Source of the DNA: Loxodes magnus
Taxonomy: Eukaryota; Ciliophora; Karyorelictea; Loxodida; Loxodidae
Length of the DNA: 64,000 bases
Assembly: GCA_946699065.1 (NCBI GenBank)
Contig: CAMPDV010000013.1
Coordinates: 310,001-374,000 of the forward strand
Direction: 5' to 3'
Part shown: piece after piece, positions 857 through 55,039 of the stretch
Position numbering within the stretch: the first letter of the stretch is position 1
Layout: each line of letters begins with the position of its first letter
Notes under the pieces: generated by a model
What the model was told of the DNA's origin: nothing
What the model saw: the letters and a program-made list of their open reading frames with translations, nothing else
The model's database searches: none
Position numbers and translations under genes: made by a program

Positions 857-2563
857 TTTTTTTTAAATTAACTTTTATTATATTTTAAAGTTAAGTATAA
901 ATTATTAATTTATATATCAAATTTAATTAAACTTATTATAATTATGTAAAATTAATTATTTTATCATTGTCAGTTAAAGAAATTTAAATATAAGCCCTTT
1001 ATTAATTTGCTAATAATAAGAAAATTATACTTACATAAAATATTTAGCTATAATTAAATTACTTTATTTCTTTTATTTAAAAACATATTTTAACTAAAAC
1101 TATCCTTTAATATTATAAATACTAAAAGATTAAATTTTATTTATTCTATCGTTTTTAGTATTTATATATATATCAACAACTACATTAGAAAACTCCCATA
1201 TTTTAGCTTAAAATTAATAAAATAAATGATAATTATTAAAATAATTTATTTTATTTTTATTTTAAAAATAAATAAATAAAAAATCTTATTTACTATTTAA
1301 AAGTTTAAATAATAAGTCATAATAATAAACTATAAGAGTTTAAATATTGAGACATAATTGTATAATTATTATTATTTAACCAGCAAATTACGATAAATTT
1401 AAAAGTTTATATATTTCATTCATGGTTCTCTTTCACACTCATCTTGATAAAAAAATTTTAACTCATTAAATCTGTCTATGGGTTTTTAATATAATCTATT
1501 TTCTCTTCACTCTAGTTCTTAAAAATCTTTAATGATTTTCTAAATATTATTGATGAAATATTTTTATGTAATTATCTAATTTAATTATCTTATCTTTTTA
1601 AACTATTTATTAATATAGTTTTAGTCATATAAAGCAAATCTTTTACACTATTTTCCATTAATTATTTTAATTTTATTAAAATTTTTTAATATCTGTAAAA
1701 AAGATTACGTTTTAAAATGTGCTCAAATGTATCGAATTTCTATCTACTTAAGCAAAGTTTAATGAATTGAGTTTTGATATATCGACGATTCCGTTCATAT
1801 TAAAAGTTATAAGAATAAGTCATTAGTTTTAGATTGAAATAGTTTTTTTAATTAGATGTCTATTGTATTTAGCGCATATTATTAAAGAGTAAACGTTTTA
1901 TAAATCTCATATTAAGTCAACAAATCTTTTTACTTTTGACATGACTGCATTCTTTAAAGGCATTCTTAGAATAAATATTTTAATTTAAATATTGTTATGC
2001 TTATTAAACTTTTTGAAATCATCAATTATAATATCTATTTGCACATATTCATAAGTAAGCAAGGTTTTGATTATCTTGACAACTCTTAATTTTTAATAAA
2101 TATTTATCTTACTTCAGATTTATTTCCTTGCTCTGATTTTGAGAATAAAGATTAAATGTTGTAATTTTTATCTTTTTACTAAATAGAATTATTTTTGTTA
2201 AATTGGAGCTAGCATTGCTGATATTATAATGAAAGGTAAAATTAAACTAATATTCTAACACTAGTGCAATATTTAATAATATAAATCTTTCTCTTACACA
2301 TGTTTTTCTTTTTGTTAAAATACTATTTTAGGAAATAATAGTATGTTACATTATAGTAAAGCAAATAATTAAAGTAACGGGTTATTAAGGAGGAACTTTG
2401 AAGCAAACATTTTAAATTTCTAAATTTTAATTTTAGAAGTACCCTTAAACTATTGGTTCTTTTTCTTATTTAAGAAATAGAAATAATTTTAGTAGAGGTT
2501 TGATATTAATAGGAATAAAGTAAATGGTATTTAGTTTTTTTTAGTTGTTAATAATCTAATAAC

Positions 2564-3172
2564 TAGGTATGGGTTTGGATTTAGTAGAAGTAAAATAGGT
2601 TATAGTTTTTGTTATAATAGTAGAATGTAATATTTGTATGTTAAATAATAAATAGATATTATATAAGTTATTAAAGAATTAAGGAATAAGAAGTAATTTG
2701 AAATTAGTTATTTAGGTTTGTTAGTAAAAATATGTAAATAGTATATTTGATAGTAGTAATAGTAGTTTTGATAGTTACTGTTGATATAGTTAAATGTTAT
2801 TTAAATAATGTTAAATGACTATGAATTGATAAATAAATAATTAGTATATTTAATTTAAAAATAATAAAATTAATTAATTAAATTATTATTTTATCAAAAA
2901 AGATTAATTTAAATTAGTCATCAAAAATATAAAAGCATTATAAGGGATTATACTACTAATATTTTAAAACTATAAACATTATTATTCAAAATCAATATAA
3001 TCATTAAATCATTAGTCTATTATTCATTAACTACTTTAAGTCAAAATACTAACTAATCATTTTATCCTTTTTATCATTTATTAAATAATCCTAATTTACT
3101 TTAAATATTCAAAAATTATCACTAAATCATATTCAATTTATTAAAAAGCCTAATTTAAAACTTTCATAATCA
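2564..3172. other. Strand-asymmetric block: C-free half, then G-poor half
   Basis: From 2564 to 2777 the plus strand has no C at all, and only two C from 2564 to 2894, while G is common. From about 2948 to 3172 the plus strand has only a few G but many C. The switch lies at an AT-rich imperfect palindrome near 2865-2895. The same block recurs at about 43865-44470 and 58000-58610 with no difference I could see in most of its length. Confidence 0.7.
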
Positions 3173-5793
3173 AGGAATCCCTTTTAGAATATTTAACTAT
3201 ATATTAATCAAAGTATTTTAAATCTATTTTATTTATTAAACTTAAATAACTAATTTTATATTATATTTTTATTACATTTTAGCTAGTTTATACTAAATCA
3301 AATAATTAAACTTTGTGGTATAAGAATTCATTATTTAATAATAATAAAACTTTAGAAATTCTTTTTTACTTAATAGATTCATTAATATACTATAAATATT
3401 ATCTCTTTTAATTTCAACTTTTTTCTTTTAGGATTTATTAAGTTTTAGATATCTTTATCGCTCTATTTATTAAATTAAGATAACCTATTAATTTTAGAAT
3501 TTAAAGTCACTGGACTTATACATTTGAATCTTTTTAGTGCAAAATTATTTCATATGAGTATCTATAAGGATGTTTTTTTTAAAAACAGCAACTTAGTCCT
3601 TTTAGTAGTTGCTATAAACTTGAAATCATAAATTTTGCAATTTAAGGCATATACTATTTAAAATGCTCTAATATTTTTAAAATATTTTCAAATTAAATAA
3701 CATTTATTTAACTAAGATTCTGGTCTAAAAATAAATTTCTAAAAAAAGATTTAAATAATCTCAGAATATTTCCTGCCAGTTTATATACAGTCATGATATT
3801 TTTAACTTCTTAAAAAGTAAAAAAGTTTAATTTTTAATATAGTTAAAAATAAACATATCTTTATGGCCCGCTTTATTTTGATATAGAATGTAACTATTAC
3901 GATGTGTGAATTATTAGTAAATTAATTTGTAAAAACTGGTTCAAATAGATACAATTTAGTTTTGAAAAATATGGAATATACTTGAGTAATGAAAATCAGT
4001 CGTAAAAGAATCTAAAAGAATATGATAAATATTATAAACGACACAATTTAATAATAAAATTATTATGAAGAAAAATGTATTGAAACAATCAAATAATAAA
4101 TATAAAATTTCACTATTAAAAATATTTAGAATCTAATAATAAAAATTATAAATAAATATGCATAAACAATAAAAATAATAAGAAATTAAAATGCTATAAA
4201 TGTAGTGTTAAAAAATTATATAAATTTAACTATTTGATTTATAATTATTATTAAAATAGTAATATTTATTTCTATATATAACTTAAAATTATTTAAAACT
4301 ATGCTTAAAATGTTTAAAAATAAAGAAAAATATTTTTAAGCTATTTAAATATATTAAATAAGTTTAATTATATTTTTTAAATAGGATACATAAATTTTAT
4401 ACTTTCTTTTATTTCTAATTATATCTTAAAATAATATTATATTTTTATTACATTTTTAATCATTTTACAAATTAAATATTTTAAATTTTATATCTAAATT
4501 TTTTTTAATTTATAAAGATTTTGCTAAACTAAAGTTATATGAAAAATTAATTAAAGCTGCTTTATAAATATAAAAATATATTATTTTAATATATAATAAG
4601 AAATTAAATATTTTTATAATAGATAAAAAGAATCCATTCATGATGTAAAATTGATTATTATATTCTTTATTTACTTTATAATTTCTTTGCTTAAATTTAT
4701 TATCTATAAAATACATTTTTTTACAATGCAAAGGCTTTAAAATGCTAGTCTCATTTTTTTTAATTTTTATATATATTTGAAAGTATGATAACCGCTTGCT
4801 ATAATATAATTAGAAAGAAATTATCTTCGATAAAAGTATAAATATTACTTATCAACTTGATAGAGTTTTTAATTGATTGCAAAATAGATTTTTATGATTG
4901 GTTTCGTCGAAAATGTTTAAAAAATAATTTTTAATAGAAAGGGATATTTTAAACTAAAAATAAGAAGGGATATATACTCTATTGATATAATTAATTTTAT
5001 AAATAAATAATTTTTTCTTATGTAATTTTAATTATCTATTTTAAGTAAAAAAATAGCATTTTCCAATCTCTTAAACCTAGAATTTGAAAGCTTTTATTTT
5101 AATTATAAATTAGATACAATTGTATTAATTATTAAATACTAATCATTATTAATTATTTTTCTATGAAATTAAATTTATAAAAATAATAAATATAAGATAC
5201 GTAAATAAATTATAGATAGTGTTGTTATAATAATATTATTTTCACTAATAATTTGTAACTATAAATGAGTAAGTTTTATAAAATTTAATTACCGTAAATT
5301 TTTATTTTAATTAAAATATTTAAATAATATTAAATTTTAAATAAGCAAGAATGATATTCAAATTTACATTTATATTTTATTTTTTTAATAGAAATTTATC
5401 AAAAAGTTTAATCTTATTTTATTTGTATATCTATTGTTCTTAGACAATCAGTAACTCTCCTTTTAAAAAAATGCTCCTAGTTTCTTATTTTTTTATTTAT
5501 AGGCTTATTTTAATCAATAAAATTAAAAAAAAATGTTTTTGCTTCAAAATTTTAATTAATTTTGCTACTTTATTTAATATTTAGAGTTAGAATGCTAATA
5601 TTTAAATAAAATAAAATTATTTGTAAAAAAATGAATCTGGATTTCATATTAAGCTTAGAAAATAATGTAAACATAATTTTTACTTATTTACTCAAATAAT
5701 GAAAAGTTTCCACTTAAGTAGAAGTTTAAAATTTAAAACTAATAAAAAAATTAGTAATTTTAACATAATATACATAAATAAAGGATGAAAAAT

Positions 5794-5813
5794 AGCCTAT
5801 CTTCAAATAGGCT
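5794..5813. other. Perfect hairpin in the large unit
   Basis: AGCCTAT at 5794-5800 pairs with ATAGGCT at 5807-5813 around the 6-nt loop CTTCAA. It is repeated unchanged at 47062-47081 in copy 3. Function is unknown. Confidence 0.4.
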
Positions 5814-6529
5814 GATTATAAAAAAACTGAAAGTTAGAGAATTTTTTAGCATTTTTAACATTTTTAATTTTTTATATTTTGAAATTGAAAGTTTCTAAGA
5901 ATAATGATTTTTATGTTGAATTTCTTTATTTAAAAAGTCAATCAATGTTAAATTTTTTAAATTTAAATTTATAATCTTTATCTTAGACACAATTATTGTT
6001 AAATATAAAATTAAAAAATATAATTTTTTTTTATTTTTTAAATTAATTAATTTATACTTTATTTTTTTCTTTAATAATAATTTTAAATAATTTAATAGAA
6101 GTTGATAGTGTCAATTAAATAATTAGTAAATTATATATTCAATTTTTATAGAAAAATATAATTTCTTAAGTTTTACTTATAATTTTTCATTTAACTTTTA
6201 AAAATATTTTACTACATTTCTAAGTTAAAATCTAGATTACATAATTTATTATATGTTTTATCTAAACATTAATAAAATATTTAAAATATTTATTTATAAT
6301 ATCATTTAGAATTATATATTTTCTTAATTATTTTAAAATTATATTTAATTAATTTTTTTGCATTTACTTTGGTTTTTTATAAAATATTAAGAGATTTTAT
6401 ATAAATTATTTTAAATTTTTATTAAACAAATAGAAAAATATTAATATTCCTTATTTTAATTTAAAATATTATTCTTCATTAATAAGAAATGCAATCATAG
6501 TTTTATTAAATATTTTATCTATTAGATTA

Positions 6530-7691
6530 GTTTTAAATAACTTATATAAGCTAATATAATACTTATATTATCTCATACTTATTACAAAGAAACATATTAT
6601 GTTAAGTTTACTCTTTCTATTAATTCAGAAAATAATAATAGAATATACAAAAAATATTTTTTCTTTCTTAAAAAAGCTTATAGATTTCTTAGTATCAAAC
6701 AAATAATTTTAAGAAAGAGAGTATTAATAGTGGCAACTATATTTTTTGGATAAGTATAGAATAATAGAATTAAGTTTTTATCTTTAAATAATCTAGAATA
6801 ATTTAGGTATTATTAATTTAAAATTATAATTACAAAAATAACATAAATAATAAATATAATATTAGTTTGCTATAAAAAGAGAAAGTTATCTAAATGTATT
6901 AATTATAACTAATCTAATATCTTTATTAATTAAAGAAAAATTTAAATTAATAACTAATAAAGCTAAAAGGATAAAATATTAAGTATTTAATAGACATAAT
7001 TAAACATATTAAAGCTTATTTTAATAATAAAATTAGATATTACTATTTAATAATTGTAAGATAAAATTAGTGATACACCATTTCTAGTTAGTTTTAAATA
7101 TTTACTTTCTACTACTTATATTTATTACATTTATATGTTTTGCTTAGAATCAACATTAGAATAAATTATATTAGTTTATTATTATAAGAGAGACCTTTAT
7201 AAATAAAAAGTTTTAATAATGAAAAGCTTAAAGAGCTCACTTTTTTGATTAAATGTAAGTGAAAAATAATAACTAATAGCAGTAGATTTAAAAAGAATTA
7301 TAATATTTTATTTATCATTTAAAAGAGTCTATAAAGAAATAAGGTTTTCTTATTAAGAGTTTTGATTTAAAGCACAAATAAGTAGTAATTAATAAATGCA
7401 TATTAAAGTTATTATAATAAGGAAATAAATTCTTCGTTATAAACTTTTGAAATAATAATTTATCCTTTTATTTAAAAGTAAAAGGATATAAAATAATTAA
7501 AATTTTAAAAGCATGTACTATTAGTTTAAAATTTTGACTTGTTTTAAGACAAAAGTGGAAAAATAAATGTTTTAGAAGATATTTATAAGTATGCTTAATA
7601 GTTTAATTGTTTAATTGTATTGAAATTAAGTCAGTAAAATTTATTGAGTTATTTTAATTAAATATTTATTGAAGTAAGTTATAAAATTAAA
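6530..7691 (+). promoter_or_regulatory. Shared 5' flank of WD40 gene A
   Basis: About 1.1 kb of AT-rich sequence directly upstream of the WD40 start is conserved before all four WD40 genes (here; about 19204-20335 inverted; 27865-29169; 62617-63720 inverted) and before the nearly complete LINE (47810-49049). Conservation upstream of each copy suggests it holds the promoter. No defined element could be identified. No other gene is seen in it. Confidence 0.45.
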
Positions 7692-8763
7692 ATGGAGAAA
7701 AAAGAAAAGCAATTTACTAAAAGTATTTTTTTAAGAAAACTCTTAAGAGCGAGAAGCCACATTTTAGGGAAAGTATCTCTACTTCATTTTAAGTATGAAA
7801 TTCTGCCAAATTTATGCTACTAAAAGTTAATAAATAAGATCAGTTATGACCAAAGTAAAGGTATTTCTTTAATATTTTTTAGACTAAGTCCTCACTGGTC
7901 ACACTTCACCTGTTTGCTCGGTATCTATATCAAGTGACCTGAATTGAATTGTATCAGGTTCAGCATAACCTGAAAATTCGATAAAGATCTGGAATTTCCA
8001 GACAGGTACTCTCCAAAGAACTATAACAGGACATACTGATTATGTTAACTCGGTAGTAATCTCCCCTGACTCTAGCTATATAGTATCAGGATCTGGTGAC
8101 GAAACCATAAAGATCTGAAACTTATAAACTGGTTCTCTCATAAGAACTATAACGGGGCATACTTCCTCAGCTAGATCGGTAGTAATCTCCCCTGACTCTA
8201 ATTATATCGTATCAGGATCTGGAGATTCAACCATAAAGATCTGAAACTTGTAGACTGGTGCTCTCCTAAGAACATTAACGGGATATACTCACTATGTTAT
8301 ATCGGTAGTAATCTCATATGACTCTAGATATATTATATCGGGATCTGCTGATAAAACTATAAAAATTTGGGATTTTTAGACTGGTCAACTTGTGCGAACT
8401 CTTACTGGGCATTCAGACTAAGTTTTATCGGTAATAATGTCTAAGGATAATAGGTATATAATATCGGGTTCTAGCGACAAGACAAATAAGATATGGGATT
8501 TCTCTTCTGGTTAGTGTATTCGTACTCTTTAAGGTCACTCAAGTTCTGTATCAAGTATTCAGTTAAGTGTTGATTCAAGTGTTATATTTTCTAGTTCATG
8601 GGACAGAACAATCAAGATCTGGAACTTTGATAAGGGTGAGTGTATATAGACTTTGTAAGGGCATACAAGATGAATATCTTCTATAGCATTGAGTGTTGAT
8701 AATAGATGGTTGGTATCGGGAGGACTTGACAAGACGATTAGAAAATGGAGGGTTTCGAGTTGA
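7692..8763 (+). CDS. WD40 repeat protein A, seven blades, one 28-nt intron
   Basis: Exons 7692-7854 and 7883-8763 give 347 residues ending at TGA 8761-8763. Residues 1-55 (starting MEKKEKQFTKSIFLRK) form a basic N-terminal region without a recognised domain. Then come seven WD40 repeats with cores such as YIVSGSGDETIKIWN, spaced by 126 bp (42 residues), enough for one closed beta-propeller. Such propellers act as binding platforms, not enzymes. Internal TGA codons at 7945, 8116, 8242 and 8671 fall on the conserved Trp or other Trp sites, and many TAA/TAG fall on Gln. The ATG and the length are shared by all four copies. Blades are almost identical at DNA level but differ at loop positions such as TDYVNS, TSSARS and THYVIS. 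It shares its surroundings with LINE copies. Confidence 0.85.
7855..7882 (+). other. 28-nt intron of WD40 gene A
   Basis: The intron starts GTAAAG and ends TTTTTTAG. Removing it joins the N-terminal frame to the WD40 frame and makes the total length a multiple of three. The same 28-nt segment is found at the same place in genes B (19013-19040) and C (29348-29375). Gene D (62411-62438) has an altered donor. Confidence 0.8.
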
Positions 8764-9330: not shown

Positions 9331-11690
9331 ATAATAATAATCTTAACTAACTTTTATTATATTTTAAAATTAAGTATAAATTATTAATTTATATAAATTT
9401 AATTAAACTTATTATAATTATGTAAAATTAATTATTTTATAATTGTCAGCTTAAATAAATTTAAATATAAGCCATTATTGTTAATTTACTTATAATAAGA
9501 AAATTATATTTACATAAAATATTTAACTATAATTAAATTACTTTATTTCTTTTATTTAAAAACATATTTTAACTAAAACTATCCTTTAATATTATAAATG
9601 TTAAAAAATTTTATTTATCCTATCATTTTTATTATTTATATATATATCAACAATTATATTAGAAAATTTTCATATTTTAGCTTAAAATAATAAAATAAAT
9701 GATAATTATTAAAATAATTTATTTTAGTTTATTTATTTTTTAAAAATAAATAAATAAAAAATCTTATTTACTATTTAAAAATTTAAATAATAAGTCATAA
9801 TAATAAATTATAACAGTTTAAATATTGAGACAAAATTGCATAATTATTGGCATTTAACCAGGCAAATTACGCTAAATTTAAAAGTTTGCATATTTCATTC
9901 ATGGTTCTCTTTCACTCTCATCTTGATAAAGAATTTTTCAGTTCATTAAATCTGTTTATGGGTTTTTAATATAACCTATTTTCTATTCACTCTAGTTCTT
10001 AAAATCTGTAATGGTCTTCTAAATATTATTGATGAAATATTTTTATGTACTTATCTAATTTAATTATCTTATCTTTTGTAAACTATTTATTAATATAGTT
10101 TTAGCCATATAAAATAAGTTTTTTATACTATTTTCATTAATTACTTTAAGTTTATTAACAATTTTTTAAATATCTATAAAAAGATTACGTTTGAAAATGT
10201 GCTCAAATGTATCAAATTCCTATCTACTTAAGAAAAGTTTATTGAATTAAATTTTGATATATCGATGATTCAGTTCATATTTAAAATTATAAGTATAAGT
10301 AATTACTTTTTAGATTGAAATAGTTTCTTAAATTAGATGTCTATTGTATTTAGCGTATATTATTAAAATATAAAATAAAATGGCACCTAAGAAATGATAG
10401 ACCTCTATTAACGAATACTTGAAAAAATAAGAATAACCTAATTTAATTGAAGAATAGCCTTAATAAGATAAAGATTAATAATCTAAGGAATCCTTTGCAT
10501 AATCAGTTCAGCAAAGGATATCAAATATTCAATATGACTTGAAAAAGCAAAGATAAAAAATAGAAAATTTAGAAAACTTATTAGAAAAATTAATGGAATA
10601 ATTAAACTTATAATTGACATCCATAGATGAATCATTAGATAAAATCTAATCGTAAATAGTAATTAAATTGGAATAAATTGATAAATAATTTAACGAAGTC
10701 CCTCAAATTTTCCAATTTCATTTTTCTTAAATTGAATATCAAATAAAGCAACTTTAAGAAAAACAAGAATAATAACAAGTAATAATTTAAAAATTATAAG
10801 ATTAATAAGACTAATAATCAAATATCCCAATGGAAATCGAATCGGAATTCTAATAATAAGAAATAAATAAGATCAATTATTATCGCAAAAAGATTCGGTG
10901 CTATTTATGCTAGAAAAATAATTGCTGGAAAAAATGCTGGAAGAAACAAGAAATTGAAAAAATTAACAAGTAATAAATATTAGACTAACTTTTCAGAATA
11001 TGACCAACAAGAACAGGATAAGTATACAGAAAGAGATTCTACAACTCAAGAAACAACGAGTTTTATAAAAATGGAAGAAGAAACTATAACGATAATTAGT
11101 GGATGAGGGAGAGACAAGGATGGCGGATTAATGTAGTCCTACTCAGTCCTTTAGTTCAGGAAAGAGCAGGAACAAAAACAAGTGAACCCCGGAGCTCTTT
11201 TCTAAGACTATAAACTTAATTTTATCCTTTATCCTTTTTAAAGAGAAAATGTTTTATATATCTTTTATTAATTTAGCAAATCTTTTTACTGTTGACATGA
11301 CTGCATTCTTTAAAGGCATTCTTAGAGTAAACATTTTTATTTAAATATTGTTATGCTTATTAAACTCTTTGAAATCATCAATTATAATATCTATTTGCAA
11401 ATATTCATAAGTAAACAATGTTTTGATTATCTTGACAACTCTTAATTTTTAATAAATATTTATCTTACTTCAGATTTATTTCTTGCTCTGATTTTGAGAA
11501 TAAAGATTAAATGGTGCAATTTTTATCTTTTTACTAATCAGAATTATTTTTGCTAAATTGGAGCTAGCATTGCTGATATTATAATGAAAGGTAAAAATCA
11601 ACTAGTATTCCCAACACTAGTGCAATATTTAATGACTTATAGATGGCTAATCTAAATCTTTCACTTACACATGTTATTCTTAAATTTGAA
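9331..11690. repeat. Large AT-rich unit, copy 2 (interrupted and truncated)
   Basis: This matches the first part of copy 1 (about 870-2300). It is interrupted by the Gag-like insertion at about 10370-11240 and cut off at about 11690 by the 3' end of a minus-strand LINE. The rest of the unit does not resume beyond that LINE. Confidence 0.65.
10380..11215 (+). CDS. Gag-like zinc-knuckle protein, copy 2 (variant knuckle)
   Basis: The frame starts MAPKKWQTSINEYLKKQ, with Trp as TGA, followed by a long Gln-rich coiled-coil-like region. The knuckle is CYLCQKNNCWKKC at 10899, in frame with the ATG. The usual His is Asn here and a Cys sits one residue later, so metal binding may be lost or changed to four Cys. 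The family motif follows as RIWPTRTGQVYRKRF. The insertion lies inside the large unit (empty sites near 1878, 43148 and 57310). Only a very short direct repeat, about TAAA, can be seen at its ends. The stop is not certain; the end given is where similarity to the family fades. Confidence 0.6.
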
Positions 11691-12079: not shown

Positions 12080-12560
12080 TGATATAATTTGGTCATAGGT
12101 TATTAATTTTCTAATGTCGCATTTTCCAATTTTTGCTATTAACCATTCTCGTATATCTATATAGCAATCGCATTCCAGAATATGTTCAAATTAATCAAAT
12201 CTCCACAAATACAATGGGAATTCTCAACTAAATAATGTCTGTCTTAAAGATCCTTGCGAAAGTTGTAACTTTAGGTTCTGAGTTTGAATATACTAATAAT
12301 TTCTTTTCGATACTATTTATTTAGTATTGGATAGGTAATCCACGGGAATTATTATTATTATTATTATTCTATAAATAACTTTGCAGTGGGCCTCCTTTTT
12401 AGTCTTTTAATAGTTACTTCATAAAATTAATGTTGAATCTTACTTTTAATATATTTTGTAAAAGTATTAAAGCTACTATTATATTCCTAATTATTAATAT
12501 CTATTTCGTAACATTCAGATAATCTTGTTATTTAATCTCTATATTATTATTCTTCTTACC
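12080..12560 (-). pseudogene. C-terminal zinc region of the deleted LINE
   Basis: Reads as LNKQYRKEIISIFKLRTQSY followed by a C-X-C...H...C region, CICGDLINLEHILEC. It matches the same region of the nearly complete LINE near 54590-54740. It directly follows the endonuclease remnant because of the internal deletion. A Lys-rich tail continues to about 11800. Confidence 0.65.
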
Positions 12561-15500
12561 AATTGTTCTTAAAAAGGGAATTATTTATTAATTAATTCTT
12601 CCTAACTACGCGTGAGTTTCTTTATATACTTAATTAGCTCTTTTAACTTCAGTATACTTCTTTATGAGGTCTTTTGTAAGTTTATTATATTTAGGGTCTG
12701 GAATAAATGAACCTAATATTACATCTGCATTATATTATATATTGCGTTTAATACATGAGTATTAATCCTCTAAATTATTCCTATCAATTTGAAAAATTCA
12801 TTATAAGTTTAAAAAAAAGATTCTTAATATTTTTATCTGTCAATAGGGTCTTTTAGCCTGCTAAATTTATATTTTCTTTAGGTAATTATGTCCTAATAGA
12901 GAATTGTGTTGAAGAGAAAATTTGCCGTAATTGGTATGTGATCAGTAAATAGTTAGTTATAATGAACCTAGAAGTTTTCAAATTGATTAATATTCAGGTT
13001 ATTACTTATTACAATATAGTCGTTGCAATACAAAAACCTGTTCCTTTATGTATGCAAGTGTTGCTGCTCATACTATTTACTATTTCAAGATACTTCTGAA
13101 TAAGAAGTTCTGGGAATCTGTTTGTATTATCATAATCATTATTAGGATTATCTCCATAATCTTTCAGGGGAGCATTGAAACCTCCCATTGGAATATGTGG
13201 GTTATTTGGGAATTGATTAAGTAACAAATTAATATAGTCATATGCTTGGTCTTTTATGTTCTCATTTTAGCTATTATCTGGCATGTAACAGGACGTAATA
13301 AATATATTATCTAGTTTGGCTATGATAAATTGATTCTAGGTACATCAATTATATTAGTTTCTTCAGTACTACTGAATTCTTCTTTAATAACTAGACATAC
13401 ACCTCCTCTTTTCCTGAATTTTTGTAATAAGTCCTATAACCTTATATTAATATTGAATAGAAATCTTGTTTTTACCAAGTTTTATTAATTGAAAAAATGT
13501 CAATACTATTTTCTCTTATGAATTCTTCTACTACATATATTTTAATTTCTATTTCGTTCATGTTTACATGTCCAATCTTAATTTGATTGACGCTACTTCT
13601 TTTTTAGTAGTTATATTGATCTAAAATAATTTGTTTTCCTTGTTGATTTAGTTAAGAGCCGGCTTTCCACCCAGGTTCATAAATTAAAATTTATTTTTTT
13701 GTCCACTGATTTCAAGATGAACGTATTTTTTAATGTTATTTATTTTAGTCATAAAATTAAATTATAATATAGAGATGTTTTCTGCTATATATCTTTAATA
13801 ATCTCTTATCAATGTTAATTTTAACTACTTGATTTTCAATCTATCCTTTACCAAGTTCCTAGTCAAGTACAACGCATCTGTTTTAAATTATAGTTTGGAA
13901 ATTAGTTCTTCTTCAAAAGTTAGATAATATATAGTCTCTTAGATATTTTGAATTAACATTGTAATTTTTTATAAAAGCCTAATTTTGTTCCATTTTATTG
14001 ATATGTTATTTAGTAGATGGAAAATATGGATCTGGATATTTTCTCTTTAATTAATTTATAGAATCCTATTCCAAAGAATTTCTTAAGTATCCTATTTTAG
14101 ATTTTATAAATGAGAGTTGTTGAAAATCTAAAAAGATTATTCACAGAATTTTATGGAAAGAAAATGTTAAATTGGAAGAAATTTACTACTTAAAACTTTG
14201 GATCTATTTCAGATTTTCCATTAAAGTACATTTTTCTGATGCAACTTTATTAAAAGCTTTGATTTAATTGATTAGTTGCTCATTTAGTTTATCATATTAT
14301 TTCTACAATTTTATGTATTTAGAATCAATAAAGTCGCACTAGGAAATTTAATCCAAGTGTAGTAGGTCTGTTCCAGTAGCCGTATCTAAATTCAAAATAA
14401 TTGTTTGAATTTTTTAATCACTGGATTAAATTTCAACCTGTTTGTAATCATTCTATAATTAAGGTATTTTTGTTTATCTGAAAGCATCTTTAAATTCTTG
14501 GATATACTTATTTTTTACAAATGTAATGAACTTAATATGCTTTAATAATCCAATTCTTTAAGTTATAGATTCAATTAAAGATTATTACATAAATCCGATT
14601 TCTAAGAATATTTCTTTTCTCATTCAAATTTAAAAATTTCAAGTTAGCTTTATAATATTTATACATAATCAGTTACTTTTTAATTTTAAGATTTTAGTTA
14701 TTAATTATAATTAAAAATATAGTTTAATTCAAGTTCAATATTAGTTTTTTATTATCAAACTTCTTAAAGTAGTTACCAAATGCGTTGTTATCCAGAAAAT
14801 TACTATTAGTAGAATGAAAGTTATTATTTTAAATATTCCTATTTTGAATATAATAATGATTCTTCAGTTTATGTTTGATTGATTTCTAATTTTATCTATT
14901 GCGTTTACGCTTCTTAATTTATAAAAACTCTATTGTTAGTTTAAGTTCTTTTTTCAATACATTTTATTATAAAATCTGTTTAAACAGTTATCTCTTTAGA
15001 ATTGACATAAATTGTTTATACTGATTATTCGTGAATTCTTATTTACTCTTTGGATTAAAATGAAAACTAATTCCTCTCAAATTTTTATTGAAAAATGTTC
15101 TAAAGTAGTTATTAATTATGTTTTACTATAGAAAGATATTATTTATAAGTAACATTATCTAATGAAATTGTTCATTTTAATCTTCTATTTTAAAATTATT
15201 AATAGGTTATTTTTTATCTGTTATAATATTTAATTATTTTTTCAATAGCTTTTCCTAATAATATTAGAAGTCAAATTTTAGTAACTATTTTTATTTTTTT
15301 GTATTTCTAATTAATTTTATTAATATATGGCTTATAATATGCTTTTGATGATTCTTAGTTATTTATCAATGGTTTATTTTTCTAGTTAGTATTTTGTTTC
15401 TGTACTATCTAATTTTTCATTTAATAAATAGTTCTTATCTATTAGTCTTTATACATCCTATTTAAGTATTTTATACCTAAAAATAATTAATTTTCATTAA

Positions 15501-16179
15501 ATGAATTATTAATTGCTTAATTTTATATTGCATTTATTGGGTCAACATTTTATTAAAGTTGTTTATTTTAATTCTAAAGATCAGATAAATAGTGATACTT
15601 TGAATTAACAGAATTAATATTATTGTCTTACTTTTAACTGTTTTTATTACATTCAATTTAATCGAATTACTGGTTACTATTATTCAAAAATAAATCAAAG
15701 TTTACGTATTTTTTGACTATTGTAAAAGTATATTTTTTATTTAGTATTTAATTCAGATTTGAAAGCTTATCTTAAGAGATCGGAGTGTCTTAGATAATAT
15801 CTTAATTTTGAAAAGATTTTTTGGATGATCTTTTTGTATCTTCGGCGTAAGTATTTTAGGGGGTTAAACTAGTTTTCTACCTATAGGTTTATTTTTCTTT
15901 CAATAGATGCTAAAATTGATGTCCACGTTGAAGAGAATTTCGAAGTAATTTCAGTGGAACGCGTAAGAATTTATTTTCTAGTTTTTGACTACAAATATTT
16001 AGTAATTTTCTAAATAAATCCATTATTATATTTACTTATTTTATTTGTATCAACTTCTTTTCTTTTATTTGGAGGTTTTTATGCACCTGCCTGTGTTTGA
16101 TCTATCAGTTTGCAGCTTCTTAATAATCAATTAAAGAAGAGTCGCTAGTTAAAGCTAGTGAATTTTAAGTATTTTCCAT
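12560..16179 (-). pseudogene. LINE ORF1-endonuclease remnant
   Basis: The N-terminal part (from 16179) is a Gln-rich coiled-coil-like ORF1 region joined to an APE-type endonuclease remnant. Recognisable endonuclease pieces are NPHIPMGGFNAPLKDYGDNP near 13190 and NTCIHKGTG near 13040, then DHIPIT near 12930. Loss of the Asp in GDFN and the RT deletion make activity very unlikely. Frameshifts within were not mapped one by one. Confidence 0.65.
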
Positions 16180-16189
16180 TTTTTTAATT

Positions 16190-16480
16190 TAACCTGGTGC
16201 TTATAATGAATAATCATTAAACCACAATTATACAGTTTCTTTTGTATACATGTATTAACGTTACTATCATTCATTATTTCAAGGACATTTAGCAGGAGAA
16301 ATTCTTATAATCTATATGTATTATCAAATTATTTTCAGGATTGTCTACAAAACCTTATAAAAGGGTGTTGAAATCTCCCGTCAATATATGTTGATTCTCA
16401 TCAAATTTATTTAGCAATGTGTCAAGAAGTTAATAAGCTTAATCTTTGATATCTTAATTTAAAAATCCTTTTAAAATTTT
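16190..16480 (-). pseudogene. Fragment of a second LINE endonuclease
   Basis: On the minus strand the sequence reads QHILTGDFNTLLQGFVDNPE, the same region as HILMGDFNALLQGFGDNPE of the LINE at 49070. It lies immediately upstream of the ATG of the minus-strand LINE in the same orientation. It is an isolated fragment of about 280 bp; its own 5' and 3' parts are not present next to it. Confidence 0.6.
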
Positions 16481-18134: not shown

Positions 18135-19203
18135 TCAACTCGAAACTCTCCACTTTCTTATCGTCTTGCCCCATGCTCCCGATACCAACCATCTATTATC
18201 AACACTCAATGCTATAGAATATATTTCATCTTTATGCCCTTACAAAGTCTTGATAAACTCACCCTTATCAAAGTTCCAGATCTTGATTGTTCTGTCACCA
18301 GAACCAGAAAAGATAACACTTGAATCAACACTTAACTGAATAATTGATACACCACCTTTATGGCCTGAAAGAGTATGAATACACTAACCAGAAGAGAAGT
18401 CTCATATCTTAATTGTCTTATCCCAAGAACCAGATATTATATACCTATTATCCTTAGACACTTTCACCGATAAAACAGAATCTGAATGCCCAGTAAGAGT
18501 TCGCACAAGCTGACCAGTCTAGAAATCCCAGATCTTTATAGTTTTATCTTCAGATCCTGATATAATATATCTAGAGTCATAGGAGATTACTACCGAGTAA
18601 ATGAAAGAAGTATGTCCCGTTAACGTTCTTTGGAGAGTTCCATTGTGGAAATTTCAGATCTTTATAGTGTTATCAGCAGATGCCGATACAATATAGCTAG
18701 AGTCCGGGGAAATTACTACCGATTTAACATATGAAGTATGCCCCGTTATAGTTCTTTGGAGAGCACCAGTCTATAAGCTTCAGATCTTGATGGTTGAATC
18801 ACCAGATGCCGATATAATATACTTAGAGTCGTAGGAAATTACTACTGAGCTAACATAATCAATATGTCCTGTTATAGTTCTTAGGAGAGTACCTGTCTGG
18901 AAATTCCAGATCCTTATTGAACATTCAGGATATCCAGAACCTGATACAATTCAATTCATGTCACTTGATATGGCTACCGATAAAACAGCTGAAGTTTCAG
19001 TAATGACTTAGTCTAAAAAATATTAAAGAAATACCTTTACTTTAGTCATAACTGATCTTATTTATTAACTTTTAGTAGCATAAGTTAGGCAGAATTTCAT
19101 ACTTAAAATGAAGTAGAGATACTTTCCCTAGGATGTGGTTTCTCGCTCTTAGGAGTTTTCTTAAAAAAATACATTTAGTAAATTGCTTTTATTTTTTCTC
19201 CAT
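18135..19203 (-). CDS. WD40 repeat protein B, seven blades, one 28-nt intron
   Basis: The exons are 19203-19041 and 19012-18135, giving 346 residues. The N-terminus MEKKQKQFTKCIFLRKLLRA matches gene A. Seven WD40 blades follow and the frame ends at TGA 18137-18135 right after RKWRVSS, as in the other copies. TGA encodes Trp in blades (for example KIWS and KIWN) while the last Trp codons before the stop are all TGG. A 138-bp stretch (18651-18788) covering one blade is identical to gene D (62046-62183), a sign of blade exchange. The gene is in the left arm of the inverted repeat, with the RNA-like block convergent to it. Confidence 0.85.
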
Positions 19204-29169: not shown

Positions 29170-30127
29170 ATGGAGAAAAAAGAAACGGAGATAAAAGAAA
29201 AGCAATTTACTAAAAGTATTTTTTTAAGAAAACTCTTAATAGCGAGAAGCCACATTTTAGGGAAAATATCTCTACTTCATTTTAAGTATGAAATTCTGCC
29301 CAATTTATGCTACTAAAAGTTAATAAACAAGATCAGTTATGATCAAAGTAAAGGTATTTCTTTAATATTTTTTAGACTAAGTCATTAATATCACCTCACC
29401 TATTTGGTCGGTAGCCATATCAAGTGACCTGAATTGAATTATATCAGGTTCATAATATCCTGAAAATTCGATAAAGATCTGGAATTTCTAGACAGGTACT
29501 CTCCTAAGAGCTATAACAGGACATATTTCTCCTATTACTTCGATAGTAATCTCCACGGACTCTAGCTATATTGTATCGGGATCTTATGACAAAACCATCA
29601 AGATCTGAAACTTATAGACTGGTTCTCTCATAAGAACTATAACGGGACATACTAGCTCAGTTAACTCGTTAGTAATCTCCTATGACTCTAGATATATTAT
29701 ATCGGGATCTCGTGATACAACTATAAAAATTTGGGATTTCTAGACAGGTCAGCTTGTGCGAAATCTTACTGGGCATTCAGGCTGAGTTTTATCGGTGGTA
29801 GTGTCTAAGGATAATAGGTATATAATATCTGGTTCTTATGACAGTACTATTAAGATATGGGACTTCTCTTCTGATCAGTGTATTCGTACTCTTCAAGGTC
29901 ATACAAGGGGTGTATCAAGTATTCAGTTAAGTGTTGATTCAAGTGTTATCTTTTCTGGTTCTGATGATCATCTAATAAAGATCTGGAACTTTGATAAGAG
30001 TGAGTGTATATAGACTTTATAAGGACATGCAGGATCAATAGAATCTATAGCATTGAGCGTTGAAAATAAATGGTTGGTATCGGGAGGATATGACAAGACG
30101 ATAAGAAAGTGGATAGTTTCGAGTTGA
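29170..30127 (+). CDS. WD40 repeat protein C, six blades, one 28-nt intron
   Basis: Exons 29170-29347 and 29376-30127 give 309 residues and end at TGA 30125-30127. The N-terminus has five extra residues relative to gene A (MEKKETEIKEKQFTK). There are six WD40 repeats rather than seven, consistent with loss of one 126-bp blade unit without frame change. This copy has CAG and CAA where gene A has TAG and TAA (SSDQCIRTLQGH against SSGQCIRTLQGH), direct evidence that TAG and TAA are Gln. Six blades may still close a propeller, or the protein may be impaired. Confidence 0.85.
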
Positions 30128-33866: not shown

Positions 33867-34503
33867 TTTATAAAGCAAAACTTAATTTTATGTGAGATTA
33901 ATTGAAGATGAGCAAGAATTTGAGGAAATATAAAATAAATAGGTTATAAGAGGCAATAAATCGTCAAAAATATTTAGAATTTTTCCTGCAAACTTATCTA
34001 GAATTCTTTTAGATAGATTAAGATAATCTTGAAGTTTAAAATGAATTTATCAAAAATAACATCTAATACAATGCTGATTAAACATTAGGATTCTTTATTC
34101 CAGACTCAAGTTATAACAATTTTCCTCAAGATCTTACTAAGAAATATGTAGGCCTAAAAGGGCTAACTCAGTATATAAAGAAGCACATATTATATCTGGA
34201 AGAATAAACTAATAAGTAACTAATCTTTATGAAAAAGTGAAACGACATTCTGAATGACTTCAAGTCTAATTTGTGAAAGTTTGAAAAAACAAAGCAAAAA
34301 AGAAACTTTTACTTCTAAATGGAGATGCTAAAGAAATATGTTCACATACTAAAAAATTAAAAAGCCTAAAAAATAAATTAAATTAATTTTAATTAAGAAA
34401 TCAAAAATAAATCCATTGAGTCATGGAAGAATTTATTTTTAACAAAAATTTTAATCTAACTAAATAATATAATTCTCAGTAATTAAAAAATAGATAAAAT
34501 ATA

Positions 34504-35350
34504 ATAATAATAATAATAATAATATACTTAATGTTAAAAAATTGTTTTCCGATCACAAAACTTGAAACCTGGTCGCAGCTTCCACTATTTTTTTGCGTGG
34601 CTGGGTTCCACGGTCTTTTTTATTGAGAAGACAACTATCATGAACAGATTCAGTGCTTAAATTCTAAAATATTTTTCTTTTATAGATCCCTTCCTTTGTT
34701 ACATAAAGACTTGATAAAATTCTTAATGTTTTTTATTCTTCAATTTTTTGTTTAGTTTAAAAACTTTTGCATCTTCTTAGAATATGTCATTATGATCTAC
34801 AATATCAGCATTTTTTCTTTCAATTTTATTTTGAGTTCTTATATTCAAAATGTTTCCAATGTTTTTAATTCTTTTGTTCATTTAGGTTGTTTCTTTACTA
34901 TTTTCTTATTCTGTTATTTTTTCTTAGGATTGAGAGATTATTAATTTATTTTGAGGATCTTCAATCTACATTGATACAACTGATGATGGAGGCAGTTAAG
35001 ATTAGGACCAAATTTATTATCTTGTGATTTATTTATTATTTATTAATATTGTCTTGAGTTAATCTATTTCAAGGTTGAGTTGTTCGTAGTTAGTAAGAAT
35101 TTCTCGAATTTAATTAGTCAGATTTCAGATAGTTTCTTCTTATTTGACTATAACTTTATTTAATTTTTCAACTTATTCTTTTTCTATTCAAGAAGTTTCT
35201 GGGTCAACCATGCGCTTTCCCTAGGAAGGAGATGAAGAGCTTGATTATTCTAAGGCCTACTTTTTTACTTTTAAATTAGATTGGCTTTTCTTCTAACCTT
35301 CTTAATTTCGGCCTTGCTAAGATGCTGTCCGATATTAAACTCCATTTTAT
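34504..35350 (-). mobile_element. Gag-only retroelement insertion, copy 4, nested in a LINE
   Basis: A 16-bp direct repeat, AAATAGATAAAATATA, flanks the insertion at 34488-34503 and 35351-35366. The LINE copies at 39230 and 52870 show the same site empty. The 3' end carries an ATA/TAT triplet tail at 34504-34525; the ATG is about five nt from the other end. This defines the complete element at about 847 bp, with no reverse transcriptase and practically no leader. Confidence 0.75.
34553..35345 (-). pseudogene. Gag-like zinc-knuckle protein, copy 4, frameshifted
   Basis: The start MEFNIGQHLSKAEIKKVRRK is in one frame, the coiled-coil middle (for example LTNYEQLNLEIDQLKTIL) in a second, and the knuckle CWYCRSQWHILRRC with RKIF-like tail (EGIYKRKIF) in a third. 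At least two frameshifts are therefore needed to join the parts, so it is probably dead, unless frameshifting or sequence errors explain it. The knuckle keeps all four ligands; both Trp residues around it are TGA codons. Confidence 0.6.
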
Positions 35351-35379
35351 AAATAGATAAAATATAAGATAGTATTTAA

Positions 35380-37480
35380 GAAATTAAAGATTATCAACTC
35401 TCATATTTATTAGGATTGATCTTTTTACCACACAAGAAATACAAGAATTATAAAAGAAATTAAAAATGGAAAAGCAGCTGGTCCAGATAGAATAAAAAGT
35501 GAACTTCTGAAATATGGTGGATAATATTTTATGATAATTCTTCACTCTTTTCTGAATAATATGTTAAGATTTGGAAGAATCCCTTAGGAATTAAATACAT
35601 TGTCGGTAATTCCAATATTTAAAAAAGGAAATAAAGATGACTGGAAAAACTGAATACCTATTTCTCTTGTTAATATTATTATAAAACTATATGATAAAGC
35701 TTTAACAAAAAGACTATACAATCTGATTTATTAGAGAAATTTGATTCACCCTACATAAATGGGATTTATGCAAATTAGATAAAATCTTAATAAATTTGAA
35801 TAATATAACAAATAATTGATAACTATCGGAAAAGTGCTAAAAGTAAGATTAAATTGATAGTAACACTGATAGATGTTTAAAAAATGTTTGACTCAATAGA
35901 AAGAAAACTTTTATTAGATCAATTAAAGAGAGTTAAACTACCACTTGGACTAATAAAAGCCTTAGAGTTGTTTTACAAAAACCTAAATTCTTCATTTAAA
36001 ATAGATGGAAGGAACACCAGAACATTATAATACAACAATGAAGTTATGTAAGGAAGTGAGCATGGGCCAGTTTTAACATTGTTGTATTATGACGTAGTAA
36101 TTAGATATTTGGAAAGTAAAAGTACCTAATTGGAATTCAAATGCCAGGGTTGGAGTATTAGCTTAGCATGCAGACAATGAACGGATGATCTGATTCTTCT
36201 TTCCAAAACTTCAAAGTAGATGCAGGAGTTAATAAATGAAACAAGTAAGTATTTTTACATAAACTCACTTAAAGATCAATGTTATCAAATCTGAATGTAT
36301 CTAAATTTTAAAGAAACATTATAAATAATAAAATTTAAATTTATGATTAGATAATTAACCAATTATTTAAAAGGAACTAGTAACATATTTAGATGTAATG
36401 CTACATTAGAAGAAGAATTTTAATCCTCATTGTAGAGAAGTCGCGATAATGTATTTAGTTGCAATGAAAAAGCTGTTTTTTAACTTATGAGATATAAGAA
36501 TGTGATTTCTTGGCATTTTAAAACTTTATGCAAATTTTTTACATTACCTAAAGCAGAATATGGAGAGAACTAGTACCATGGTGTATTCAGAAAGGAATAA
36601 CTGGAGTTTTGAATAGAATTGAATCAAATATGAGAATGATTTAAAGAAAATCATTTTAAGCAGCAACTTCAACATTAATAAGTTATGTTTCATAGATTTA
36701 AACCGGTTATCTTTCAAATACATTATGGCAATAAAAATTTCTAAATTCTATTATAAAATGAAATAAGAAAGTATTGATTTTTCAACATCGACAATAGGCT
36801 CTCTTTTCATTACCAACTGAAAAAAAAGGATTTCAATGCTATGATCAAGTTTAGCAATTATCAGACCTCTATAGTATCTGCCTGTAGAATTCCAAGATTA
36901 GTACAAATTAAAAAATTTTTACTAAATATATAAGAGAACAAAATAAAATAATATTTCGATAATACAGCTACTCAAAAGTTTAAGAGAATGAAAAAAGCTA
37001 AAATATATACTAAGCAGTTTAGTAATCTTAACCAATTTCTAGTAATTACTTACACTAAGTTGAACAAATAATTTAGACAAGAAATTATCAGCATAAATAA
37101 ACTTAGAACCCAATCTTATAATTTTAGAAAAAATCTTTAAGCTTGTCATTATCTATTGATAATCCCTATTGTATGTGTGGAGAGTATGGTACATTTTAGC
37201 ACATTTTTAAATTTATATACTATTCTAATACAAGAGATTGACTATCGCAAAAGATTGAGAATTATGACTTAAGACGCTTTATAATATATGATTAAGGATT
37301 TATAAACTCCCTTCCGAATTCATATTTGGGATATTTAGATCTATAAATAAAAGTATTTCGCAAGAAACTTATATCAAGAAGATTAGAATTATTAGAAATG
37401 GAAAAAGTAAAAAAGGAAGAAATAAAAGAGAGACTATAACAAGAGTAATTTAAAATTGATGAGTTCAAGATTATAATTAA
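35380..37480 (+). pseudogene. LINE reverse transcriptase, broken copy
   Basis: Similar throughout to the RT of the LINE at 49070: NGKAAGPDRIKSELLKYGG, then FDSIERKLLLDQLKRVKLPL, then a motif C with Thr in place of the usual Ala (WTDDLILLS). The deletion near 35780, loss of the 5' part with the endonuclease and the inserted Gag element mean it cannot be autonomous. Confidence 0.7.
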
Positions 37481-37560: not shown

Positions 37561-38255
37561 TTTAAAATTTAAATAAACAGTTTCATGCAATAACTCTATT
37601 ATTAAAGTTAAATATTATACTAAATAGCTTTAATTTATACCATTTATTTTTATAAAAAGTATTAAAATTTAAATTCTAAAAACTAATTAAATTGCTAATG
37701 AAGCCATTTAAAGAAATCTTTATTTAACTATAATTAATAAAACATAGAGAATATAAAGGAAGAAATATTTAAAAGGAATTTAAGTTCTAAGTAAGCAAAA
37801 GGAAACTTTAGCTTTATTACTTTAATAATATAAAATTCTAAATGATAGCAAAATATAGTTAAAATATAGTTAAAATAATCCTTTATAATAGTAAGATATT
37901 AATATTAAAAATAATATATCAAAAATCTAAAATAATTCAATAATTATATGCTTAGCTAGAATTAATTATCTTTGTATCAATTTAAAACTAATAAAGAGGA
38001 TGCTTTTATTATTTTGATATGAGTTTTAAATAATTGGCTAACAATAAACATTTGATTACTAGATTATAAAAATATAAAAGTTCTCATTTAATAATTAATG
38101 TCTACAATAATTAAAACAATAATTTAGTGAATTAAAAAGTAAATATAGTTAAACATATCTTTAGAGATAACTGCATAAAATTAAATGAATAAAGAATTAT
38201 CAATAATTATAAATTTAATGAATGTTAATTTTTAGTTCTAAGTAATATAAGTAAT
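37561..38255. repeat. LINE 3' flank, copy 1
   Basis: AT-rich sequence shared with 41420-42125 and 55600-56290. Its second half also follows WD40 gene A (8972-9330). It may be the LINE 3' untranslated region plus unit sequence. No gene is seen. Confidence 0.6.
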
Positions 38256-38291
38256 TATAATAATATTCTTAACTAACTTTTATTATATATA

Positions 38292-39113
38292 TATATATAG
38301 TAAACTAAAAGTAATTAAAGTTTAGCGTTCCCTGGATTTTCAACCAGGTTTTTGCTACCATTTTTTTAGCGTGGATGGATACCACGCCATTTTTTTTTGT
38401 GGATGGAACCACTGAGAATCTTCTGTCTTTTATACGAATATCTTCTTCTTGTAAATTCCCGTTTCGGTGATTCAGAGTCTGCTAAGCATTCTTAACGTTC
38501 TTTGTTGTTCTTTCATCTAAATTTATCTTCACTGATCGCAATTTTGTAATAGGTGTCACTTTGATTTGCAATAATAGCAATTTTTGATTGGTCTTTTCTT
38601 GAATCTCTTCAGAAATACTTTTTTTTCAAGTTAATCGATTCTTTGGAGTAATTCTATATTAATCTTTTCGTCATTCTATTTTTCTTGGATGTTTGTTTAT
38701 GTAGAAACTTTTTCAATAATCATATTTTGTTCTTGCTTAAAATTCGATTGAGATTATTCATATAGTTACTATTCCGTGACTAAATTATTTTAAATTAATT
38801 GTCGTCTTATTATTAGTAGCTCGTTGTTTTAATCTTCGATAGTATTCATTAGTTCTCTTATTTTTTCCCCTTGATTGTAAATTGTTTCCTAATAATTTTG
38901 TATTATTGTTTTCATTTAGTCAATTATATTTAGATTTCTGATTATTTTTGTACTTTTACTGGATTCGTCTCTATTGTTCCAATTATAACTTTTCCTTCAG
39001 ATGAGGAACTTGATTTATCTTCTTCTTGTTATTGTTTCTGCATTAGTTTCGCAGCTTTCCTTTTTGCGTTCTTAATTTGGTTTTTGGAAAGGCGAATAGA
39101 TTATTCCATTTTT
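38292..39113 (-). mobile_element. Gag-only retroelement, copy 5, joined head-to-head to a LINE
   Basis: Nearly identical to copy 1 including its left flank, so both descend from one insertion. The right target-site duplication is missing; just beyond the ATG, at about 39113, the sequence changes to LINE sequence in the opposite orientation. Confidence 0.65.
38340..39109 (-). pseudogene. Gag-like zinc-knuckle protein, copy 5, one-base deletion
   Basis: Same sequence as copy 1 apart from a one-base deletion near 38925, which leaves 770 rather than 771 bases between ATG and the presumed stop and shifts the frame upstream of the zinc knuckle. Either this copy is broken or copy 1 carries an insertion; the continuous frame of copy 1 favours the former. 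Confidence 0.65.
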
Positions 39114-41420
39114 TTTATATGAACTTTAATTAAGAAATCAAAAATAAATCCATTGATTCATGGAAGAATTTATTTTTAGCAAACATCCTAATCTAACACA
39201 ATAATAAATAATTCTTAGTAATTAAAAAATAGATAAAATATAAGATAGTATTTAGGAAATTAAAGATTATCAACTCTCATATTTATAAGGAATTTATCTT
39301 TTTACCATACAAGAAATACAAGAAATTATAAAAGAAATTACGAATGGAAAGGCAGCTGGTCCAGACAGAATAAAAGGTGAATTTCTGAAATATGGTGGAT
39401 AATATTTGATAATAATTCTTCACTCTTTTCTGAATAATATGTTAAGATTTGGAAAAATCCCTTAGGAATTAAATACATTGGCGGTAATTCCAATTTTAAA
39501 AAAAGGAAATAAAGATGACTGGAACAACTGACTACCTATTTCTCTTATTAATATTATTATAAAATTATATGATAAAGCTTTAACAAAAAGACTATACAAT
39601 CTGATTTATTAGAGAAATTTTATTCACCCTACATAAATGGGATTTATACAAATTAGATAAACAACTTAATAAATTTGAATAATATAACAAATAATTGATA
39701 ACTATCGGAAACGTGCTAAAAGTAAGACTAAATTGATTGCAACACTGATAGATGTTTAAAAAATGTTTGACTCAATAGAAAGAAGACTTTTATTAGATTA
39801 ATTAAAGAGAGCAAAACTACCACTTGGACTAATAAAAGCCTTAGAGTTGTTTTACAAAAGCCTAAATTTTTCATTTAAAATAGATGGAAAGAACGCCAAA
39901 ACATTATAATACAACAATGGAGTTATGTAAGGAAGTGAGCATGGACTAATTTTAGCATTGTTGTATTATGACATAGTAATTAGATATTTGGAAAGTAAAA
40001 ATACCTGATTAGGATTCAAATGCCAGGGTTGGAGTATTAGCTTAGCATGCAAACGATTAGCAGATGATCTGATTCTTCTTTCCAAAACTTCAAAGTAGAT
40101 GCAGGAGTTAATAAATGAAACAAGTAAGCATTTTACATAAACTCACTTAAAGATCGATGTTATCAAATCTGAATGCATCTAAATTTTAAAGAAACATTAT
40201 AAATAATAAAATTTAAATTTATGATTGGATAATTAACCAATTATTTAAAAGGATAAAGTAACATATTTAGATGTAATGCTACATTAGAAGAAGAATTTTA
40301 ATTCTCATTGTATAGAAGTCGCGTTCAAGTATTTAGTTGCAATGAAAAAGCTGTTTTTTTAACTTATGAGATATAAGAATGTAATTTTTTGGCATTTTAA
40401 AACTTTATGCAAACTTTTTACATTACCTAAAGCAGAATATGGAGAGAACTAGTACGATGGTTTATTCAGAGAGGAATAACTTGAGTTTTGAATAGAATTG
40501 AATCAAATATGAGAATGATTTAAAGAAAAGCATTTTAAGCAGCAACTCCAACATCAACAAGTTATATTTCATAGATTTAAACCGGTTATCTTTCAAAAAC
40601 ATTATGGCAATAAAGTTTTTTAAATTCTATTATAAAATGAAATAAGAAGGTATTGATTTTTCAACATCGGCAACAGACTCTCTTTTCATTACCAACTGAA
40701 AAATTTGATTTCAATGCTATGATCAAGTTTACCAATTATCAGACCTCTATAGCATCGACCTGTAGAATTCCAAGATTAGTACAAATTAAAAAATGTTTAC
40801 TAAATATATAAGAGAAAAAATACAATAATATTTCTATAATACAGCTACTCAAAAGTTTAAGAGAATGAAAAAAGCTAAAATATATACTAAGCAGTTTAGT
40901 AATCTTAACAAATTTCTAGTAATTACTTACACTAAGTTGAACAAATAATTTAGACAAGAAATTATCAGTATATATAAACTTAGAACCCAATCTTATAATT
41001 TTCGAAAAAATCTTTAAGATCTTCATTATGCTATTGATAATCCCTACTGTTGTGTGGAGAGTAGGTCATTTTAGCACATTTTTAAATGTAGATACTATTC
41101 TAATATAAGAGATTGACTATCGTAAAAGATTGAGAATTATGACTTAAGACGCTTTATAATATATGATTAAGGATTTATAAACTCCCTTCCGAATTATTAT
41201 TTGGGATATTTAGATTTATAAATAAAATATTTCACAAGAAACTTATATCAAGAAGATTAGAATTATTAGAAATGGAAAAAGTAAAAAAGGGAAGACTTAA
41301 AAGAGAGACTATAACAAGAGTAATTAAAAATTGATGAGATCAAGATTATAATTAAAAAGCATTAAAAACATTTACTAATGTCTAATTGAAGGAAGCAATT
41401 CTTGCAGTTATAGATGTCAA
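39114..41420 (+). mobile_element. 5'-truncated LINE
   Basis: Begins abruptly in the region between endonuclease and RT (NFNQEIKNKSIDSW, compare 52772) and runs through the reverse transcriptase to a 3' hairpin at 41378-41417. RT motifs include GPDRIKGEFLKYGG near 39360, FDSIERRLLLDQLKRAKLPL near 39767 and LADDLILLS near 40060. The region preceding it is the oppositely oriented Gag copy 5. Confidence 0.75.
39290..41330 (+). pseudogene. LINE reverse transcriptase, 5'-truncated copy
   Basis: Encodes the RT core and the C-terminal region but no endonuclease or ORF1 part. It is collinear with the RT of the LINE at 49070 and keeps the ADD triad. The zinc region near 41040 is damaged (a few bases are missing between TGTGTGG and the His part), so it is likely dead. 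Confidence 0.65.
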
Positions 41421-54998: not shown

Positions 54999-55039
54999 GA
55001 TGTAAACAAGATTAAAAAACTATTTAAAAACATTTACTA

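Follow-up and report, generated by a model that had tools for sequence, protein, structure and literature searches.

Genetic code 27 in karyorelict ciliates was reportedly described by Seah et al. in 2022. It runs against a textbook rule for one codon to stand for an amino acid and for a stop within the same gene, but ciliate cases have been published since 2016 (PMC4967479). In that work, Swart et al. applied ribosome profiling to Condylostoma and described stop codons that are sense in the gene body and act as stops near transcript ends (PMC4967479). According to the same source, "stop" codons become scarcer ahead of the genuine stop, in Condylostoma for UAA, UAG and UGA and in Parduczia for UGA, and the proposed cue is proximity to the poly(A) protein together with short 3' UTRs (PMC4967479). 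The Loxodes magnus paper gives table 27 for karyorelicts and describes a depletion of UGA and UAA over roughly the last 20 codons ahead of the stop, 3' UTRs with a mean of 53 bp, a GC content of 33.5% in coding sequence (CDS) and 18.6% in 3' UTRs, and introns with a mean of 19.3 bp (93% of them 25 bp or shorter), against 15–16 bp in heterotrichs (PMC11441545). In Blastocrithidia, UGA reading has been linked to an altered eRF1 and to a tryptophan tRNA whose anticodon stem measures 4 bp (PMC12153298).

We analysed a 64,000-nt stretch of DNA (the window; 21% GC as a whole) that contains four paralogous WD40 genes and several LINE-type copies. The window is very likely (probability about 0.85) ciliate nuclear DNA that uses NCBI genetic code 27, in which UAA and UAG encode glutamine and UGA encodes tryptophan in the body of the message but is a stop near its 3' end. 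Like Loxodes code 27 as that paper presents it, the window has UAR as glutamine and UGA as tryptophan internally and, apparently, as the stop at the end. It also shares with Loxodes a short intron (its length not divisible by three), GC-rich CDS followed by AT-rich sequence, and the absence of UGA from the last 20 codons. On the points that the paper covers we found no difference from the Loxodes code, the depletion of UGA here being without independent significance. The proposed fit to karyorelictean ciliates is good with respect to table 27, the short introns and the GC contrast between CDS and UTR (PMC11441545), and the organism is probably a karyorelict, perhaps Loxodes. Since the window matches table 27, which is already published for Loxodes, it adds one more example to a code that was known before.

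The other two systems, as the cited papers describe them, resemble the window in part. As in Condylostoma and Parduczia, all three stop codons are read as sense, and "stop" codons seem rare just before the real stop; Condylostoma, however, uses UAA and UAG as stops too, and the introns given for heterotrichs measure 15–16 nt, whereas those here measure 22 nt in all four genes. Blastocrithidia likewise has three stop codons reassigned in frame, with UGA as tryptophan and one codon keeping its stop meaning, but there UAR encodes glutamate and UAA is the stop, whereas here UAR encodes glutamine and UGA is the apparent stop.

The features of the four WD40 genes are as follows.

7692–8763, forward strand: WD40 gene A, whole; ATG at 7692, 349 codons ahead of the terminal TGA
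7692–7860, forward strand: gene A exon 1, N-terminal region; its frame joins the WD40 region across the 22-nt intron
7861–7882, forward strand: gene A intron, 22 nt, GT..AG; same sequence in all four copies
7883–8760, forward strand: gene A exon 2 with its seven blades; in-frame TGA lies 272, 215, 173 and 30 codons before the end
8761–8763, forward strand: gene A terminal TGA, the probable stop; common to all four paralogues, at the fold and GC boundary
18135–19203, reverse strand: WD40 gene B; exon 1 19203–19035, intron 19034–19013, exon 2 19012–18135, terminal TGA 18137–18135; four internal TGA
29170–30127, forward strand: WD40 gene C, lacking one blade; exon 1 29170–29353, intron 29354–29375, exon 2 29376–30127, terminal TGA 30125–30127; three internal TGA
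61530–62616, reverse strand: WD40 gene D; exon 1 62616–62433, intron 62432–62411, exon 2 62410–61530, terminal TGA 61532–61530; six internal TGA

The coordinates first given for gene A (7692–8763) were correct. With TAA and TAG read as glutamine and TGA as tryptophan, the proteins have 349 (A), 348 (B), 311 (C) and 354 (D) residues, and the first bases of B, C and D were calculated from these lengths (348, 311 and 354 codons). Seven WD40 stretches passed in the Pfam search of exon 2 of A, five in that of C and seven in that of D, and gene B aligned with A, C and D along its entire length. Exon 1 has just 56–61 codons, and a Pfam scan of gene A alone matched no family there. Among the four genes, none of the 22 intron columns was variable, compared with 13–25% of columns in the adjoining blocks.

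Before the terminal codon, genes A and B each have four in-frame TGA and seven TGG codons, C has three and seven, and D has six and six, giving 17 TGA and 27 TGG in total. The 17 internal TGAs occupy eight alignment columns. Three of these are the canonical tryptophan of the "IW(N/D)" motif (blade position 29), and at one such column B has TGA where A, C and D have TGG; the initial annotation, which had placed TGA at blade tryptophans in alignment with TGG, is borne out there. Column 82 corresponds to position 16 of blade 1, a position at which blade 7 has a TGG-encoded tryptophan. The other four columns lie at variable blade positions (three at position 4 and one at position 6), at which the rest of the copies carry different residues. 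In three columns, TGA was present in every copy having a codon there. TAR codons occupy 18 columns: all four copies have TAR in five, TAR is paired with CAR in four, and TAR is paired with codons for other residues only in nine. All three usual stop codons are used internally as sense in the WD40 genes, and the aligned columns point to UAA and UAG as glutamine codons.

We also scored the translations against Pfam models with different letters in place of TGA (ten of the twenty for the WD40 genes and nine for the LINE-type frame). For gene D, the PF00400 score was 260.7 with W and 257.8 with Y, and at most 252.6 with the other eight letters. The PF25173 score was lowest with W, all nine other letters giving higher values; PF25174 scored higher with Y and S than with W, and PF24814 scored higher with F. 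Our guess is that these three exceptions reflect how many blades each model aligned. Taking the WD40 columns together with the LINE-type open frame described below and with the best scores for W in three Pfam models, UGA encodes tryptophan inside genes, some other models disagreeing.

A second family uses TGA in the same manner.

49070–54790, forward strand: open frame of a LINE-type element, in the extent used for searches, with domains for endonuclease and reverse transcriptase; tryptophan is TGA at 11 sites and TGG at 7

The best PDB match of this open frame was LINE-1 ORF2p (E = 6.5e-24), and 11 of its 18 tryptophan codons are TGA. The RVT_1 score was 105.1 with TGA as W and at most 102.8 with the eight other letters, and the Exo_endo_phos score was 38.8 with W and at most 36.6 with the eight others; Exo_endo_phos_2 scored lowest with W, by a gap of no more than 0.6 bits. 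We compared the open frame with the other copies in the window, obtaining counts that are supportive rather than exact (overlapping HSPs were left uncollapsed and the copies are partly decayed). Its tryptophan codons gave 10 TGA/TGA pairs, 9 of TGA with TGG in either direction and 4 TGG/TGG pairs, with another residue opposite in 12 cases and a gap in 3, and its non-tryptophan residues faced 23 TGA and 14 TGG codons of other copies. Seen from those copies, 13 of 36 TGA pairings and 10 of 24 TGG pairings fell on a tryptophan of the open frame; TGA thus acts like TGG in the LINE copies. This frame, which is unrelated to the WD40 genes, gives independent backing for TGA as tryptophan.

The retroelement as a whole spans 49056–55400. 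It begins past an A-tract, immediately following a fifth copy of the region found upstream of the WD40 genes (about 47699–49055). This fifth copy has no WD40 gene after it because the LINE starts directly behind it. Diverged LINE copies, some with frame breaks, lie at 12199–14359 and 15289–16456 on the reverse strand and at 33923–37265 and 39163–41140 on the forward strand. Several LINE copies have a TGATGA motif close to their 3' end. We rejected the idea of testing the stop a second time on these ends, since the copies differ by indels and frame changes that make the end of the open frame unreliable.

All four WD40 genes reach the identical ending TCG AGT TGA, in agreement with the initial annotation that they end at the same TGA. 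An AlphaFold model of exon 2 up to this codon (292 residues) was a complete propeller with a mean pLDDT of 97; it has 27 listed strands and a short one at residues 2–3, which we take as the probable closing strand of the last blade. GC content fell from 34–36% in the WD40 CDS to 17.5–22% in the 120 nt after the terminal TGA. The base after TGA was A in 13, G in 3 and T in 1 of the 17 internal cases, and G in 3 and T in 1 of the 4 terminal ones, which are homologous; a following A may influence how TGA is read, yet G and T also follow internal TGAs. Because the WD40 fold ends and GC drops at this codon, the terminal TGA is probably the stop. The original proposal that the last TGA is the stop is thus backed as far as the fold end and the GC boundary go, and a TAA seven codons further on is a competing candidate.

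In the preferred account, a tryptophan tRNA would read the internal UGAs of the four WD40 genes. With a short 3' UTR behind it, the last UGA would be close to the poly(A) tail; there the release factor would win, and the protein would end where the seven-blade propeller closes. We infer both the poly(A)-proximity mechanism and selection against UGA-Trp just before the stop from published work.

A standard ciliate code would reassign only UAR and keep UGA as an ordinary stop, making the WD40 genes decayed copies with nonsense TGG-to-TGA mutations. The region is indeed repeat-rich, and its LINE copies show indels and altered frames relative to one another. The alignments of the four WD40 genes, however, showed no frame-breaking indels, and dN/dS in exon 1 was 0.10–0.29 in all six pairs (0.45–0.82 in exon 2 and 0.41–0.66 over the whole gene), which indicates that the genes are under constraint; we rejected a pseudogene reading on these two grounds. 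The TGAs moreover lie at tryptophan-type sites, some of them common to all four copies, and the unrelated LINE open frame uses TGA likewise. We therefore regard ordinary stops at the internal TGAs as very improbable.

Termination could also lie beyond the TGA that ends the propeller. Under a code of the Condylostoma type, UAA, UAG and UGA would all be both sense and stop, and the real WD40 stop would be the in-frame TAA found seven codons past the terminal TGA in all four copies, a placement that suits the internal use of all three codons as sense. The fold, however, ends at the TGA, the 22-nt intron is unlike the 15–16 nt stated for heterotrichs, and three of the six codons in between vary, all three changes being non-synonymous (very few sites); we consider this arrangement unlikely, if slightly less so than decayed genes. 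Alternatively, the terminal TGA could be one more tryptophan codon, with termination further downstream; another in-frame TGA lies 27 codons on in three of the four copies. The 84 nt past the terminal TGA contain no indels among the four copies and have diverged little, with 12 of 84 columns variable against 184 of 749 in exon 2. The variable columns are nonetheless distributed 6/3/3 over the three codon positions in the 28 codons after the TGA (few sites), compared with 66/75/103 in the CDS, and GC drops at the same point. Among the PDB matches listed (60 of 351 sequences), no best stretch ended past residue 291 or reached beyond the last blade. In an AlphaFold model of the read-through protein (TGA as Trp 293 plus 26 residues), the propeller was as before and residues 294–319 were all below pLDDT 50. 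Continuation of the protein is the least probable of these alternatives, and code 27 with termination at the shared TGA remains our preferred reading.

The initial annotation further held that UGA-Trp is avoided near the gene end. The last internal TGA indeed lies 30 codons before the stop in gene A, as it had stated, and 30 codons before it in D, 89 in B and 114 in C. Every later tryptophan codon is TGG: within 29 codons of the end the four genes have no TGA and nine TGG, compared with 17 TGA and 18 TGG upstream. A Fisher test on codons gave p = 0.0066, treating paralogues as independent; by alignment column, TGA occurred in none of three late columns and in 8 of 14 earlier ones (p = 0.12). 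The 30-codon cut was set by the last TGA itself, and a 20-codon cut gave the same nine late codons. Avoidance is not established from the window because these nine codons represent only three homologous columns, so the pattern described holds but its statistical reading as avoidance does not. In the last 34 codons of the WD40 genes we found no glutamine codons of any kind. One window yields few independent sites for testing UGA avoidance.

Elsewhere, the window is rich in repeats. Duplicated blocks of about 6 kb with 96% identity lie at 866–7217 and 42138–48496 and at 40934–46556 and 55102–60716, most of their length being without a recognised gene. An 880-nt repeat (1–880 and 38253–39132) has 99.2% identity, higher than that of the other long repeats listed, and contains a GC-rich part. 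At 10380–10860 (approximate end) there is a glutamine-rich, coiled-coil-like open frame with no Pfam match; the stretch 10367–11235 interrupts a repeat whose other copies continue without it. In a substitution-phase scan of the repeated blocks, the WD40 genes and parts of 12.2–13.6 kb were the sole places with phase bias (p < 0.01), and 83%-identical LINE pairs showed no codon-phase bias. Six-frame Pfam searches of 10.3–17.7, 20.3–26.7 and 49.0–54.4 kb returned only LINE domains and one weak match below threshold, and a codon-usage scan picked out nothing beyond the WD40 genes (also in shifted frames of their stretches) and a weak segment at 60733–60993. Across the window, ARAGORN with bacterial settings reported no genes and no tRNA, and Rfam gave no match at the gathering score, rRNA included.

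The initial annotation read UGA as both tryptophan and stop within one gene. The tryptophan reading is backed internally in two unrelated families, and the stop reading agrees with the position of the terminal TGA at the fold end and GC drop; a dual-meaning UGA is itself a known phenomenon and not new. The window is a clean family-level example of it, comprising four paralogues and a transposable element.

Differences among the paralogues in the 42-residue blades 2–7 of exon 2 (7883–8760, 18135–19012, 29376–30127 and 61530–62410) lie mostly at positions 3, 4, 6, 22 and 24. At these positions, chosen for their variability among four paralogues, pN/pS was 1.45, compared with 0.32 elsewhere. Positions chosen from blades 2–4 (3, 4, 6, 22 and 24) gave 1.57 in blades 5–7, with 0.29 for the rest, and positions chosen from blades 5–7 (2, 3, 4, 22 and 24) gave 1.67 in blades 2–4, with 0.38 for the rest. 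Half of the TGA columns (four of eight) lie at hypervariable blade positions. When 83 residues of gene A were used to search viral contigs for related loci, the result was one locus, L001, with seven pattern matches, which we judged to be chance around one 8-residue pattern; the match presumably sits in a gene for uracil-DNA glycosylase.

In the NACHT-WD genes of Podospora, codons 7, 9, 25 and 27 of each WD40 repeat are reported to be under positive selection (PMC1805685). Blade positions 4, 6, 22 and 24 here are spaced like these codons of the fungal het-d and het-e genes (PMC1805685). The fungal genes have a NACHT NTPase domain ahead of the WD40 region, whereas none was seen here in the Pfam scan of gene A exon 1, the exon being so short. 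In the paper library that we searched, we found no ciliate work on diversifying or hypervariable WD40 allorecognition. The less expected result is the resemblance of the WD40 genes to a recognition family under diversification. Tentatively, and with the odds against it, the four genes might be a ciliate recognition repertoire that evolves like het-d and het-e, with blades almost uniform apart from the same four positions of each repeat, change being favoured at these, and UGA-Trp codons helping to supply the variation. If true, the family would represent convergent non-self recognition in an organism that lacks any dedicated stop codon.
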